A stretch of DNA of 64,000 nt from Nitrospira sp. KM1 (GTDB lineage: Bacteria > Nitrospirota > Nitrospiria > Nitrospirales > Nitrospiraceae), in the NCBI RefSeq assembly GCF_011405515.1, contig NZ_AP022671.1, positions 3,286,001 to 3,350,000 of the forward strand, in the 5' to 3' direction. Shown in pieces: positions 38,328-46,611 of the stretch. Numbering within the stretch: the first letter of the stretch is position 1; every line of letters begins with the position of its first letter. Under the pieces are notes generated by a model, which was not told the DNA's origin, ran no database searches, and saw only the letters and a list, made by a program, of their open reading frames with translations. The translations under genes and the position numbers were made by a program.

Positions 38328-40934
38328 CTAGCCGCGCAGCAGTTTCGCATTGAGTGTGGCGACCTGGCGGATCATTGCCGGTGTGAGGGACTGGCGGGTC
38401 GTCGCGAATCCTTCCCAGGGGTCCGACTTCCCGCCGGCCAGCCGGCTGGGAACCGTATTCAAATTGAATGACGTGAAATCCAGTTTTGGCGCCAACTCTT
38501 TCCACCGCAGCGGAGCCGATACCGTTGCGCCGGCTCTCGCCCTCGTCGAATAGGCTGCCACGCTGGTGGCCCCATATCCGTTGCGCAGGTAATCGACAAA
38601 TATCTTCCCGGCTCTTCTGGATTTCGCCATGACGTCGATGTACCGCTTGGGATCGTGCGAGGCCAATGATCCCGCAATCTGCTTCGCAAACTGCTTGAGT
38701 TCATCCCAGGAGACGCGGGGTGTGAGGGGGACGACCACGTGCAATCCCTTGCCGCCGGTCGTCTTCACGAAACTTGTTAGCTCGATGGCCTCCAAGAGAT
38801 CCCTGACCAATTGCGCCGCCTCAATCAGATGATTCAGAGGCACGTCGGGGGCGGGATCCAGGTCGAACACGAGGCGGTCCGGCTTATTCAACGAGTCTTC
38901 TGTACACCCCCAGGGATGGATTTCCAGCACGCCCAATTGCACCAGGCCGGTCAAGCCATCGAGATCATCGATCACCAGGGTCGTCATGGATCCGTGCTTT
39001 TCTTTGACACGAACGCCTCTGATCGAAGGCGGAAGACCTTCCATGACATGTTTCTGATAGAAACATTGTTTGTCATATCCGTGAGGACATCGCACGATCG
39101 TTAATGGCCGGCGCACGATATGCGGCAGGATCCACGATGCCATGGTCTGATAATACTGCGCCAGCATGAGTTTCGTGATTCCTTGCTCCGGATAGAGGAT
39201 GCGTTCTGAATTGGTCAATTTGAAGGGGGAGGGTAAAGCGGCCGCCGGTTCCTTCCTCCTCGAACGGCCTTTTGGGGGAGATGCTGCGGCTGCCTCGGAC
39301 ATCGGCTTGGGCGCTTCACGGATGACCTCGTGCGGGGACTTGTCCGCCCGAAGGCCGAGAAAGGCCGGATGCCGCAAGACATTATCAGAGGTCCACTCCG
39401 TAAAACGGATTTCGGCCACCAATTCGGGGTTTACCCAATGCACGCCGCGGCGGGAGATATCCTTTGGAAAATCCTTGAACGGCATGGTCGAGGTTTCACG
39501 CGCGCGAAGTTGCTTCATCACATTGCCCAATAATTCCTGAGAAAATCCCGTCCCCACGCGACCGGTATACCGAAGGTGCCGGCCGCCTTCATACACGCCG
39601 ATCAGCAGGGCTCCGAAGCCCGTGCGCGCGCCGCCGGGGTCCGTGTACCCGCCGATCACGAATTCCTGCTGCTGGGTGCATTTGATTTTCAACCATTGCG
39701 GAGAGCGGCGTTGGCTGTAATGGCTGGATACGTCCTTCGAGATCATCCCTTCGGCTTTGAGGCTGCACGCGTGATTGTGAAAGTCCTCGCCGTGTCCCAG
39801 CACATGATCCGAGTACCGGATCACGGAGTGCGTGTCGACGTGAGGGGACAACAGTTGATTCAGTATCTCTTTGCGCTCGAGCAGAGGCACCTGAGTCAGG
39901 TCATATCCTTCACCGTACGGCACATCGAAAATATAATAATGGAGAGGAACGGCAGACTTGTTCTGCAGCATGCCTTGCAGAGCTTGAAAGTCGGTCGTGC
40001 CGTCGGCCCGGATCACGACGACTTCTCCATCGAGCATGCCTTCCTGGACCGGCAGGCCGGCCAACGCTTCGACGAGGGTGGGGAATTTGGCCGTCCAGTC
40101 CAGGCCGTTGCGGGTCATGAGCGTGGCGCGGCCGTTTCGAATGAACGCCAGCAGCCGGTAGCCGTCCAGTTTGATTTCATGCAGCCAGCCGTCGCCGGCC
40201 GGCGGCCGATCGACCAGAGTCGCCAGCTGAGGACGGAACGCCTTCGGCAGTGCGGTCTTACGGGCGCCGGGGGCGGATGCAAACAGTTGCCGAGACGCGG
40301 CGCTTCCGATACGTTTCAGTGGCGAAGGGGCTCGGAGTTCTTTCTTTCGGTGTGACGACCAGACCGCGTTGCGTTGAGAGGCGATTTCCTCCATCGTCCG
40401 TCCGGACACGACGCTTTCGCTTCCCTCGTCATCCGAGTCCTCGGATCGGCTGGAGTACCCGTCGGTTTCCTTGATCAACAGCCATGGATCGCCGTGTTCA
40501 GTCTTCCGTGCTTTCATCCGAGCGAGCATCCACCCGCCTTTGAGTCGCTCTCCGTCGAGCACGAACTTGAGTTTTCCGGCTCTGTACGATGCCGAAGGAT
40601 CTCCCACCGGTTGCCAGGTGCCCTTGTCCCATAGCATGACGGTGCCCCCGCCGTACTCACCCTTCGGGATGATGCCTTCGAATGATCCATATTCGACCGG
40701 GTGATCTTCGACATGCATGGCAAGGCGTTTGACGGCGGGGTCAAGGCTCGGTCCTTTGGGAACCGCCCAGCTTTTCAATACGCCGTCCAATTCAAGGCGG
40801 AAATCGTAATGCAATCGGCTGGCGGCATGCTTTTGTATGACGTACAGATGCCCTTGTGCCGATGCGGCCTTCCTGCCCTTCGGCTCTGGCGTCCGCCTGA
40901 AACGTCGTTTTTGGTGATAACGCTTGAGGCTCAC
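38328..40934 (-). CDS. ligD: ATP-dependent DNA ligase D (phosphoesterase-ligase-polymerase)
   Basis: 868 residues with all three LigD modules: 3'-phosphoesterase (~25-190; SRLHYDFRLELDGVLKSWAV, HPVEYGSFEGIIPKGEYG), ATP-dependent ligase (~225-540; nucleotide-accepting Lys in HEIKLDGYRLLAF, DGEVVVIRADG) and primase-polymerase (~570-860; ILYPEQGITK, metal-binding LVFDLDPAPD). Order PE-LIG-POL. It repairs double-strand breaks with Ku by end processing, gap filling and sealing. GTG start with a weak site. Divergent from ku across 284 bases. Confidence 0.95.
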   Translation of the reverse strand: MSLKRYHQKRRFRRTPEPKGRKAASAQGHLYVIQKHAASRLHYDFRLELDGVLKSWAVPKGPSLDPAVKRLAMHVEDHPVEYGSFEGIIPKGEYGGGTVMLWDKGTWQPVGDPSASYRAGKLKFVLDGERLKGGWMLARMKARKTEHGDPWLLIKETDGYSSRSEDSDDEGSESVVSGRTMEEIASQRNAVWSSHRKKELRAPSPLKRIGSAASRQLFASAPGARKTALPKAFRPQLATLVDRPPAGDGWLHEIKLDGYRLLAFIRNGRATLMTRNGLDWTAKFPTLVEALAGLPVQEGMLDGEVVVIRADGTTDFQALQGMLQNKSAVPLHYYIFDVPYGEGYDLTQVPLLERKEILNQLLSPHVDTHSVIRYSDHVLGHGEDFHNHACSLKAEGMISKDVSSHYSQRRSPQWLKIKCTQQQEFVIGGYTDPGGARTGFGALLIGVYEGGRHLRYTGRVGTGFSQELLGNVMKQLRARETSTMPFKDFPKDISRRGVHWVNPELVAEIRFTEWTSDNVLRHPAFLGLRADKSPHEVIREAPKPMSEAAAASPPKGRSRRKEPAAALPSPFKLTNSERILYPEQGITKLMLAQYYQTMASWILPHIVRRPLTIVRCPHGYDKQCFYQKHVMEGLPPSIRGVRVKEKHGSMTTLVIDDLDGLTGLVQLGVLEIHPWGCTEDSLNKPDRLVFDLDPAPDVPLNHLIEAAQLVRDLLEAIELTSFVKTTGGKGLHVVVPLTPRVSWDELKQFAKQIAGSLASHDPKRYIDVMAKSRRAGKIFVDYLRNGYGATSVAAYSTRARAGATVSAPLRWKELAPKLDFTSFNLNTVPSRLAGGKSDPWEGFATTRQSLTPAMIRQVATLNAKLLRG

Positions 40935-41218: not shown

Positions 41219-42037
41219 ATGCCGCGCATGCTTCGTGAAGGCAGCATCTCGTTCGGACTGGTCAACGTTCCTGTGCGGCTATACACCGCCGCGCGTTCGG
41301 AAAGCATTTCGTTCAATCTCATCCATGCGAAGTGCGGCTCGCGCATCAAACAGCAAATCTATTGTCCGAAATGCGAACTCGTGATCGAGCGCTCGGATCT
41401 CGTGAAAGGGTACGAGGCCGAGAAGGATCAGTATGTGCTGTTTACGGAAGCCGAGCTGGACGAACTGGAGGCGGACGCATCGGACAGCATGCAGATCATG
41501 GAATTCATTCCGCTTTCGTCCGTCGATCCGCTGTACTACGAAAAGACCTATTTCCTCGGCCCCGGCAAGGGGGGGGAGAAAACCTATCAGCTCCTGGCTC
41601 AAGCCATGGACAAGACCCAGCAGGGTGCGATCGCGCAGTACGTCATGTATGGAAAAGAGAATCTCGTGTTGATCCGCGCGATGCAAGGCGGGCTCGTGTT
41701 GCACGTGATGTACTATGCAGACGAGGTGCGAGACTTCAAGGAAATCGATAAAGGGAAACAAACAGAAACGCGCGCCGATGAAATGAATCTCGCGATCCGC
41801 CTCATCGACGGTCTCAAGAAAAACCGGTTTCGCCCCGACGAGTATCAGGACGCCTACCGCGAACGCGTCATGGAGTTGATCGAGAAAAAGCAGAGCGGAC
41901 AGACCCGGAAAGCACGCGGAGGATCCAAGCCGACGCCCGTCATCGACCTCATGTCCGCCTTGAAGGCCAGTTTGGAACGCAATGCTCCCGCCAAGCGGCC
42001 GGTCAAAACCGCAGCGCGCGGTAAAAAAGTCGGGTGA
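41219..42037 (+). CDS. ku: Ku DNA end-binding protein
   Basis: 272 residues: starts MPRMLREGSISFGLVNVPVR, contains YCPKCELVIERSDLVKGYE, PLYYEKTYFLGPGKGGEKTY and the basic C-terminus KRPVKTAARGKKVG, all typical of bacterial Ku. Forms a homodimeric ring on DNA ends and recruits LigD. Its TGA overlaps the ATG of the MerR-TPR gene. The Cys pair CPKC is present but bacterial Ku is not known to need zinc. Confidence 0.95.
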   Translation: MPRMLREGSISFGLVNVPVRLYTAARSESISFNLIHAKCGSRIKQQIYCPKCELVIERSDLVKGYEAEKDQYVLFTEAELDELEADASDSMQIMEFIPLSSVDPLYYEKTYFLGPGKGGEKTYQLLAQAMDKTQQGAIAQYVMYGKENLVLIRAMQGGLVLHVMYYADEVRDFKEIDKGKQTETRADEMNLAIRLIDGLKKNRFRPDEYQDAYRERVMELIEKKQSGQTRKARGGSKPTPVIDLMSALKASLERNAPAKRPVKTAARGKKVG

Positions 42038-42846
42038 TGCCCTCGGTCTATTCAGCGGCGGACATCAGCCGTATTTTGAGTCTGCCGCTCTCGGGCGTCC
42101 GGCGTTGTGTCCGGGCCGCGCTTCTGCCTGCGCCCCGCAGTACCTCGGGCTATAGCTTTCAGGACCTCATCCTCATCCGTACCTGCCGCAGTCTGATCGG
42201 CGCCAGGATCCCGGTGACCCGCATCAGACGCCTGCTGCAGTCTCTCAAGAATCAAATTCCACAGGAGCGGCACCTCTCCACGATCCGTATTTATGCCGAT
42301 GGCCGGAGGATCGTCGTCTGGGACGGAACAGCCCATTGGCAGCCGGACTCAGGACAATTTCTTTTTGCCTTCGACGCGGCTGAGTTTCCTGGCCCCGCCG
42401 GAGAACCGAAAGCCCTGCAACGGACGCCGAAGCGCACCGCCGCCCAGTGGTATCTCCTCGGCAAACAGTTGGACGAGACGTCGGGAGAAGAGGCGAGGAA
42501 GGCCTATGAGGAAGCGCTACGTATCGATCCGGCCTATCGGCCGGCGCTGATCCAACTGGGGTCGATCTATTGTGCCGAAGGTCGCTGGCGCGAGGCCGAG
42601 CAATCTTTCCGCGAGGCCAGCCGGAGCGACCCCCGTGATGCGCACGCGCTCTACAGTCTCGGTCACGTTCTGGAGCAGCTCAAGAAACCGCGCGGGGCCG
42701 TGAAAGCCTATCGCCAAGCCATCATATGCAGCCCCCGGTTCTACGAAGCGCACTATCGTCTCGGATTGCTGTACGAGTCGCTTGGAAAGAAAACCGACGC
42801 CATCCGGCACTTCAACATCGCCCGCCGCCTGAGAAAACAAACATAG
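42037..42846 (+). CDS. MerR-like HTH protein with TPR repeats, coupled to ku
   Basis: About 269 residues. An N-terminal MerR-type winged helix (YSAADISRILSLPLSGVRRC to RIRRLLQSLKNQIP) is followed by a short beta region (STIRIYADGRRIVVWDG) and three to four TPR units (EEARKAYEEALRIDPAYRPA, GRWREAEQSFREASRSDPRD, GAVKAYRQAIICSPRF, KTDAIRHFNIARR). The ATG at 42037 shares its A with the ku stop (TGATG), so it is translated with Ku. Likely a regulator or scaffold of the end-joining system (inference). Confidence 0.85.
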   Translation: MPSVYSAADISRILSLPLSGVRRCVRAALLPAPRSTSGYSFQDLILIRTCRSLIGARIPVTRIRRLLQSLKNQIPQERHLSTIRIYADGRRIVVWDGTAHWQPDSGQFLFAFDAAEFPGPAGEPKALQRTPKRTAAQWYLLGKQLDETSGEEARKAYEEALRIDPAYRPALIQLGSIYCAEGRWREAEQSFREASRSDPRDAHALYSLGHVLEQLKKPRGAVKAYRQAIICSPRFYEAHYRLGLLYESLGKKTDAIRHFNIARRLRKQT

Positions 42847-44880: not shown

Positions 44881-46611
44881 ATGACCAAGCAGGACATCGC
44901 TCGCGTTCTCCGGGAGATCGCGTTCTTTCTCCGGTTCAACGGCGACAACCCGTTCAAGGCGCGGGCGTATGAAAGGGCCGCCTCTTCGCTGCTCCTCAGT
45001 ACGGAAGAGTTGAGTTGTCTGGTGAAGGGAGAAGGGCTGATGCGGCTTGTGGATGTCGGTCCCGGGACCGCATCGGTCATACGGGACTTGGCCACGACCG
45101 GATGGTCACAGCTGCATCGGACCGTGCAAGGAGCCTATCCCTCGTCGCTGGCAGAGCTCGGCGAGGTTCCGGGGCTCAGGTTCAAACAGATTCGGAAGCT
45201 CTATGAGCGCGCGGGGATCAGCACCCTTGCCGGGCTGCAGGAGGCCTGTCGGGCGAATCGTCTGCTGTCTGTAAAGGGCATCGGACCGAAAATCCAGCAG
45301 AGGATGATGTCGGCCCTCGGGGAGTACCAGCGCGGCCGCGGGTACCGGTTGCTGGCCGATGTTTTGGAGGAAGCCGCGAGTCTGGAACGCGCTCTCAGCG
45401 CCGGTCGGGGGGTCCGGTCAGTGACGGCGGCAGGAGGACTGCGTCGTAAAATGGAGGTGATCGATGAATTCGTTTTCGTCGTCGAATGCCGACAGGGAGA
45501 TGGGATTGCAAGAGTTGCCCGGCAATTCAACGCCGTTCCCTATCTGACCGCTGTGACTGCGAGTGCCGACCGATTGACCGCACACACCGTGAGCGGCATG
45601 CCCGTACAGGTCGTTTTTCCCCTGCCCGATCATCTCGGCGTTCGCCTTCTTCAATCGACCGGTGCACAGGAGCATGTGGACGAGCTATTGGATAGGTTTG
45701 CTGCCGTGGGCTTGCCGTCTTGGCGCGATGTGGAGAACCGATTCAGCGGAGCCGGGGAGGAAGAACTCTACAGAGCGTTAGACCTTCCATGTATCCCCCC
45801 CGAGGTGCGAGAAGGACGAGAGGATTTGGATGCGCTCAAAGGCCGAAAAACTTGCAGCCTCGTCGAAGCGGCCGACCTGCAGGGGTGTTTTCATTTTCAC
45901 ACAGACTACTCAGATGGGGAGGACACGGTCGATGCCATGGTGGCCGCAGCCCGCGCGCGAGGCTATCGCTATGTCGGCATTTCGGACCACAGCCGGTCGG
46001 CGTTTTACGCCAATGGATTGAAGGAGCCTCGGATCCGCCGCCAGTGGGAGGAGATAGAAGCCGTTCAAGGCAAGCATCGCGATATCCATATTTTCAGAGG
46101 CATCGAAGCGGATATTCTGCCTGATGGGTCAATGGATTACGCCGACGAACTGCTGGCAGAGTTTGATTTCGTGATCGCATCCGTTCACAGCCGCTTCAAT
46201 CTCCCGGAGGCCGACCAGACCGCTCGAATTTGTCGTGCGCTGGCGAATCCGTATGTGACGATGCTCGGCCATCCGACGGGCCGCCTTCTCCTCTCGAGAC
46301 CCGGTTATCGCGTGGACATGGGACGGATTTTCGCTGCAGCAGCCGCGCACCGAAAAATTATTGAAATCAACGGAAGCCGGCACCGCCTGGACATGGATTG
46401 GCGATGGGGCCGTGCCGGGAAGGCGCAGGGCGTGAGATTCTGTATCAATCCGGATGCGCATGCGATCGATGAGTTCAGAAATGTCGACTACGGCGTGAAC
46501 GTGGCGAGAAAAGCCGGGCTGCTCAAAGCGGATGTCGTGAACACGTTGCCGCTTGCGGGTCTGCAAGGGCTCTTGAAGGATATGCGGCCGTCGGAATCGT
46601 CCGTGCAGTAG
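44881..46611 (+). CDS. polX: PolX-like protein: degenerate family-X polymerase plus intact PHP nuclease
   Basis: 576 residues in the PolX layout: helix-hairpin-helix 8-kDa region (MTKQDIARVLREIAFFLRFN), palm (~150-310) and PHP phosphoesterase (~330-570). In the palm, the usual AGSxRR and GDxD catalytic motif reads AAGGLRRKMEVIDEFVFVV, so both metal-binding Asp of GDxD are lost, and the third Asp (DLRVV in the family) is Pro (MPVQVV). The PHP metal ligands remain: FHFHTDYSDG, GISDHSRS, GIEADIL, ASVHSRF, LGHPTGR and NPDAHAID. It is probably a 3'-5' exonuclease or DNA end phosphatase, not a polymerase. GGGAGGA precedes the ATG. Confidence 0.88.
   Translation: MTKQDIARVLREIAFFLRFNGDNPFKARAYERAASSLLLSTEELSCLVKGEGLMRLVDVGPGTASVIRDLATTGWSQLHRTVQGAYPSSLAELGEVPGLRFKQIRKLYERAGISTLAGLQEACRANRLLSVKGIGPKIQQRMMSALGEYQRGRGYRLLADVLEEAASLERALSAGRGVRSVTAAGGLRRKMEVIDEFVFVVECRQGDGIARVARQFNAVPYLTAVTASADRLTAHTVSGMPVQVVFPLPDHLGVRLLQSTGAQEHVDELLDRFAAVGLPSWRDVENRFSGAGEEELYRALDLPCIPPEVREGREDLDALKGRKTCSLVEAADLQGCFHFHTDYSDGEDTVDAMVAAARARGYRYVGISDHSRSAFYANGLKEPRIRRQWEEIEAVQGKHRDIHIFRGIEADILPDGSMDYADELLAEFDFVIASVHSRFNLPEADQTARICRALANPYVTMLGHPTGRLLLSRPGYRVDMGRIFAAAAAHRKIIEINGSRHRLDMDWRWGRAGKAQGVRFCINPDAHAIDEFRNVDYGVNVARKAGLLKADVVNTLPLAGLQGLLKDMRPSESSVQ

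Follow-up and report, generated by a model that had tools for sequence, protein, structure and literature searches.

A Noncanonical PolX in Nitrospira sp. KM1 with an Altered Polymerase Site and a Retained PHP Nuclease Site

The PolX Locus and Its Setting

The window, a stretch of 64,000 nucleotides from the chromosome of Nitrospira sp. KM1 (contig NZ_AP022671.1, positions 3,286,001 to 3,350,000), carries a polX-like gene that is uninterrupted from ATG to stop (Table 1). Its product shows the 8-kDa, thumb, palm, fingers, and PHP order of noncanonical PolX; HHH_8, HHH_5, and PHP were matched by Pfam, with DNA_pol_B_thumb under its cut-off, and the NCBIfam PolX model NF006375 aligned to residues 1–566 with 396 bits, below its cut-off of 426. 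The protein aligns over nearly its full length with the PolX of Thermus thermophilus (Tth; 3AU2, E 3.6e-90) and of Deinococcus radiodurans (2W9M, E 3.6e-76), and the open reading frame is a full-length bacterial PolX. The AlphaFold model, built from a two-row alignment, is weak (mean pLDDT 61), and its first seven Foldseek matches are chains of the Tth and D. radiodurans enzymes. The genome consists of one contig of 4,509,223 bases, in which one PolX was found. A second PolX was rejected, as the other match is a protein of 164 aa that spans the N-terminal domains and nothing else. A separate scan of the genome_contigs collection with one query sequence returned one relative.

The order of genes in the window is LigD, Ku, a TPR protein, a CBS protein, a response regulator, and PolX, with LigD and the CBS protein encoded on the opposite strand, so that an opposite-strand gene separates PolX from Ku. 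The closeness to ligD and ku claimed in the sequence-only reading is real, both genes lying within 6.6 kb. The GTG start of the TPR protein gene lies in a 4-base overlap with the end of Ku, and the two are possibly co-translated; the N-terminus of the TPR protein gives a weak MerR-type match (20.4 bits against a cut-off of 21.6). A second Ku gene is present in the genome (G000:C1:2922092-2922607), and two Ku matches also occur in six relatives.

Table 1. Features of the PolX locus and an associated gene elsewhere in the genome. Positions are those of the window unless a contig is named.
Feature	Position	Strand	Description
LigD	38328..40934	−	Phosphoesterase, ligase, and Prim-Pol; PF13298, PF01068, PF04679, PF21686
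Ku, possible NHEJ partner	41219..42037	+	PF02735, E 4.8e-47; 2.8 kb upstream of PolX
TPR protein	42034..42846		GTG start
polX-like gene	44881..46611	+	576 aa; 8-kDa, HhH thumb, palm, fingers, C-terminal PHP
Val66	45076..45078	+	Position of the dRP-lyase Lys (Pol beta K72/Tth K68); codon from residue number
Glu196-Phe197-Val198	45466..45474	+	Aligned to Tth Asp198-x-Asp200; GDxD replaced by DEFV
Gln243	45607..45609	+	Third catalytic Asp position (Tth Asp243, 3AU2 chain numbering)
PHP nuclease site	45892..46461	+	Nine ligands: H338, H340, H370, E409, H436, H464, E495, D525, H527
Free-standing 8-kDa and thumb protein	G000:C1:1519396-1519887 (L002:1486-1977)		164 aa; outside the window, same genome

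The Polymerase Triad and the dNTP Pocket

The triad was mapped by MAFFT alignment with the Tth PolX, whose D198, D200, and D243 (the last numbered by our count on the 3AU2 chain) correspond to E196, V198, and Q243 of the window protein. The D-x-D plus D required in canonical family X is therefore missing, and two of the three catalytic positions are nonacidic (E/V/Q). The replacement of GDxD by DEFV proposed from the sequence alone agrees with the alignment, in which Tth G197-D198-L199-D200 faces D195-E196-F197-V198. The accompanying statement that none of the three metal-binding Asp is left holds for Asp itself, with the qualification that Glu196 at the first site is still acidic, and the assignment of the third Asp to the Pro of MPVQVV (Pro241) has to be replaced by Gln243. 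Other Asp residues do not take the catalytic positions, since no shift by one residue gives D-x-D and the stretch MPVQVVF contains no acid; a register slip concealing acids was rejected because none is possible in the alignment.

The dNTP pocket is altered as well. The position of Pol beta N279 is V266 in the window protein; it holds N in 28 of the 30 canonical rows and V or L in all 18 altered rows. Moreover, K263 is changed to Q, the steric-gate Tyr/His258 to Gln, and GS to GA. Since the palm lacks residues for the two catalytic metals and the dNTP, the protein most likely performs no polymerisation. A rearranged but active family-X nucleotidyltransferase, in which Asp195/Glu196 together with other acids bind metal and polymerise slowly, is very improbable: both of these residues are acidic, and two palm strands carrying V198 and Q243 (197–203 and 241–245) are predicted at the low confidence of the weak model, but the second and third positions hold no acid and the pocket has changed too.

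Three palm-motif residues, Arg188, Arg189, and Glu192, do not vary across the 18 clade rows. Drift in the palm is thus not unrestrained, and the domain may have some function, for which a structural or DNA-binding one would fit. The truncation of the palm found as an optional trait in many noncanonical PolX is absent: 104 residues lie between the columns used, against 102 in Tth and 77–90 in the altered rows of D. radiodurans and Alphaproteobacteria. The fingers comprise 51 residues against 55 in Tth, which would fall under the limit of <55 given in the available part of PMC9226535, but domain borders are drawn differently there.

Relatives Sharing the Triad Loss

PolX is patchy across the 61 genomes of the genus, family, and order, and a full-length match occurs in two of the six other same-genus genomes. 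A check for the same loss in homologues, suggested by the sequence-only reading, gave a uniform answer: among the 61 genomes, the triad is lost in each of the 20 loci that are at least 44% identical to the window protein and in which it can be read (L003-L021 and L026). The window protein and these relatives make 21 loci with 21 different triads, including EVQ (window), AHR, ATT, NTF, SVV, GAV, and RAS; only the first Asp is lost in the partial locus L026 (SDD). These residues are unrelated and show no replacement acidic site shared among the relatives, which further argues against the active nucleotidyltransferase. Because the 20 readable relatives have lost the triad too, its loss is not an isolated error, and a sequencing or frameshift artefact was rejected on this ground and on that of the uninterrupted frame.

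A second type of PolX in the family, with 35–36% identity (L022-L025), is canonical, and in the genome G016 a canonical (L091) and an altered (L016) PolX occur together. The survey of the phylum, whose totals fall short of the whole phylum as G063 and G141 among the listed matches were not fetched, gave at least 132 DDD and at least 26 non-DDD loci. The 26 comprise the 21 loci just described, four from family f7 (DDN, GDR, GES, and QDS), and L051 (NNE); labels of this kind for orders and families are codes of the search tool, in which the family of the window is f1. Further partial or full triad losses are thus seen in the same class in L073, L075, L076, and L180 (f7) and in L051 (f6), and the SDD, DDN, and NNE triads are apparent intermediates of polymerase loss. 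L078 (a 19-aa piece), L117 (unread triad bases), and L188 (the same gene as L019) were not scored as losses. L019, L021, and L026, each shorter than 500 aa, were dropped from the first alignment and restored later.

One Loss or Several

The palm and fingers columns were removed before tree building to keep the trait from driving the topology; L019 is in none of the trees. The clade of the window protein is supported at 100/99 with 18 rows and at 95/85 with 19 rows in a second tree, where the partial L026 is the sister of the 19-row clade (91/91) on a long branch. The clade is nested in mostly canonical PolX of its own phylum and a Caldithrix MAG (100/99 and 98/97). The main monophyletic cluster described in the accessible text of PMC9226535 holds most, not all, noncanonical PolX; the altered rows placed in the trees, namely D. 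radiodurans and three from Alphaproteobacteria, with Bacteroidetes rows not among them, fall outside the wider group of the window protein in free trees. Approximately unbiased (AU) tests of a union with the alphaproteobacterial rows, or with those and D. radiodurans, gave p values of 0.11 and 0.073, and 0.025 in the second set. Given this range of 0.025–0.11, a triad loss independent of the known altered cluster is favoured, not proven. Within the phylum, a single loss in common with the f7 rows L075, L076, and L180 was rejected (AU p 0.0013), as was one in common with L051 (AU p 8e-27); L073 (DDN), grouped by the tree with the canonical L052, was left out of the f7 test.

The PHP Domain and Selective Constraint

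All nine PHP ligands are kept as HHHEHHEDH, as the sequence-only reading had stated. Six residues of Bacillus subtilis PolX are described as required for nuclease activity in the consulted portion of PMC6616362, and their counterparts along the DNA path of the PHP domain, F439, R468, R473, N497, R502, and K544, are all present in the window protein, as assigned from a uniform numbering offset of one and from motifs rather than from an alignment with the Bacillus sequence. These six residues are invariant among the clade rows that reach them.

Conservation is distributed unevenly along the protein. Among the 18 clade rows, pairwise identity averages 37% for the palm and 75% for the PHP domain, which suggests that selection was relaxed on the palm while the nuclease was kept; the corresponding values among 20 canonical rows from the phylum, a set that includes the Caldithrix MAG, are 55% and 63%. 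Between the window protein and two same-genus relatives, identity is 68–71% in the PHP domain and 31–32% in the palm. This imbalance, together with the intact frame and the retention of every PHP ligand and DNA-path residue, makes it hardly credible that the gene is a functionless, decaying, pseudogene-like remnant, a view in whose favour one can cite the apparent loss of two activities (triad and lyase Lys) and the patchy distribution of PolX in the genus.

The dRP-Lyase Lysine and a Free-Standing 8-kDa/Thumb Protein

Lys72 of Pol beta is the dRP-lyase nucleophile, and PolX without this activity lack the Lys, according to the part of PMC5537341 at hand. The position, placed through alignment with Tth K68, is occupied by Val66 in the window protein, which does not have the Lys expected of a lyase-competent enzyme. 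Within the clade, the Lys is present in none of the eight members of the window's subclade and in 11 of 11 of the sister subclade; it is found in 137 of 139 DDD rows and is absent from D. radiodurans and the three altered alphaproteobacterial rows. Judged by this residue, dRP-lyase activity seems to be gone from the window protein besides the polymerase. The portion of PMC9226535 available reports no specific lyase-domain alterations in noncanonical PolX, so the loss of the Lys here refines that picture.

The lyase Lys is retained in the free-standing 164-aa protein of the same genome, as it is in all 35 sampled loci of this protein. Of the 37 genomes in the family, 34 have the free-standing form, and the other three are assemblies no more than 76% complete. 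It is found even in genomes without PolX and could possibly be a stand-alone dRP lyase or a DNA-end binder. The gene next to it on the opposite strand presumably encodes an S41-type protease. Among the papers listed by literature searches, none deals with PolX from this order or with an 8-kDa PolX protein standing on its own.

These lysines bear on an alternative in which the window protein would act on DNA in base excision repair, as a bound phosphatase or an AP-endonuclease, with its nearness to Ku incidental and without a role at double-strand breaks. AP-endonuclease, 3'-phosphatase, and 3'-phosphodiesterase activities are attributed to the PolX PHP domain in the parts of PMC6616362 and PMC9226535 consulted, and the Lys of the sister subclade and of the widespread free-standing protein would suit such a pathway, but the window protein itself does not have the lyase Lys.

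Ku, LigD, and the NHEJ Question

The distribution of Ku also speaks for base excision repair, as no Ku was found in 16 of the 21 genomes with this PolX, some of these assemblies being incomplete. Against it stands the closeness of Ku and LigD in the window, where a random site would lie within 3 kb of either Ku gene with a chance of about 0.3% (the distance having been picked after the observation), and a cluster in the same-genus genome G005 (L064:6199-9860), in which 4 bases separate PolX from a stand-alone LigD-type polymerase, itself followed by a stand-alone ATP ligase whose frame overlaps that of the polymerase if the first ATG is used. On balance, the base excision repair reading is a minority one, to be taken seriously. 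The G005 cluster resembles a LigD split into its parts, with PolX as the nuclease; adjoining matches to a stand-alone LigD-type polymerase and a ligase also occur away from PolX in G008 (C260) and G040 (C10).

At E 1e-10, neither Ku nor LigD was found in the other nine PolX neighbourhoods fetched, that of G004 included. Across the 61 genomes, 5 of the 21 that carry this PolX have Ku, as do 6 of the 40 that lack it (Fisher p 0.49); among those at least 90% complete, the counts are 3 of 11 and 5 of 33 (p 0.39). The LigD-type polymerase occurs in 5 of the 21 and in 7 of the 40. A general dependence of this PolX on NHEJ was rejected, since Ku is not enriched. The sequence-only reading further proposed LigD as the source of the polymerase, which is plausible but only partly supported: the nearby Ku and LigD and the G005 cluster argue for it, whereas the counts of Ku and of the LigD-type polymerase, the nine neighbourhoods with neither Ku nor LigD, and the phosphoesterase that LigD itself carries argue against it. 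For an NHEJ partnership of the window PolX, the considerations for and against are about evenly balanced.

Comparison with Known PolX Systems

The closest known counterpart is the noncanonical PolX class of Prostova et al. 2022, described in the accessible text of PMC9226535 as exonucleases without polymerase activity that are often co-encoded with NHEJ genes; the biochemistry given there covers two Deinococcus proteins, which showed exonuclease and no polymerase activity. With this class, whose D. radiodurans member (2W9M) has the triad AEE, the window protein shares the five-domain plan, the lost triad, the changed pocket, the intact HHHEHHEDH site, and the co-encoded Ku and LigD; it differs in its untruncated palm, in the missing lyase Lys, and in its place outside the sampled altered rows in free trees. 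By its residues and domains, it is a further member of the class. The string 'Nitrospir' is absent from the main text of PMC9226535. Canonical PolX, represented by those of T. thermophilus (3AU2) and B. subtilis, has the same fold, N-terminal domains, PHP domain with its DNA path, and two Arg of GSxRR, but its D-x-D plus D, its GS/N dNTP pocket, and its lyase Lys have no intact equivalent in the window protein. Actinobacterial PolX-like PHP proteins have likewise kept the PHP nuclease while polymerase function is gone; they lack the polymerase region, to judge from the available part of PMC12926913, whereas the window protein keeps palm and fingers.

A Proposed Role and Its Meaning

The best explanation, held with good confidence, is a noncanonical PolX that most likely performs no DNA polymerisation and has been kept for its PHP domain. 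The sequence-only reading had already proposed a polymerase-dead PolX acting as a PHP nuclease; its core is upheld by the intact PHP site and DNA path, by the stronger conservation of the PHP domain over the palm, and by the biochemistry of the class, while its reading of individual residues had to be corrected twice. From these features we infer all the catalytic activities of the window PolX, which would most likely be those of a Mn2+-dependent 3'-5' exonuclease, a 3'-phosphatase/phosphodiesterase, and an AP-endonuclease. Such an enzyme would clean 3' ends, after which another enzyme would fill and seal, and the 8-kDa and thumb HhH domains with the remnant palm would probably serve as a DNA-binding scaffold. 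In this genome, its likely partners would be Ku and LigD, acting in NHEJ. No Ku was seen in most relatives that carry this PolX, so the enzyme is probably active outside NHEJ too.

A broader and rather doubtful view is that PolX has been dismantled stepwise in this order, the polymerase site going first, independently of the known altered cluster, and the lyase Lys disappearing later in the window's subclade. What remains would be a nuclease that only processes ends through its PHP domain, carried on a scaffold that binds DNA. The partner activities would reside in separate proteins, namely the Lys-bearing 8-kDa/thumb protein and the LigD-type polymerase and ligase, the latter two being clustered with the altered PolX in G005.

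The preferred reading, that of a noncanonical PolX kept for its nuclease, extends the class described in 2022 to another bacterial order and provides a comparison of canonical and altered PolX within one phylum, with apparent intermediates (SDD, DDN, and NNE). The G005 cluster of PolX, LigD-type polymerase, and ligase makes the end-processing role directly testable. Moreover, the findings suggest that selection on PolX preserves the PHP nuclease rather than synthesis, and that separate proteins can take over the lyase and polymerase functions.
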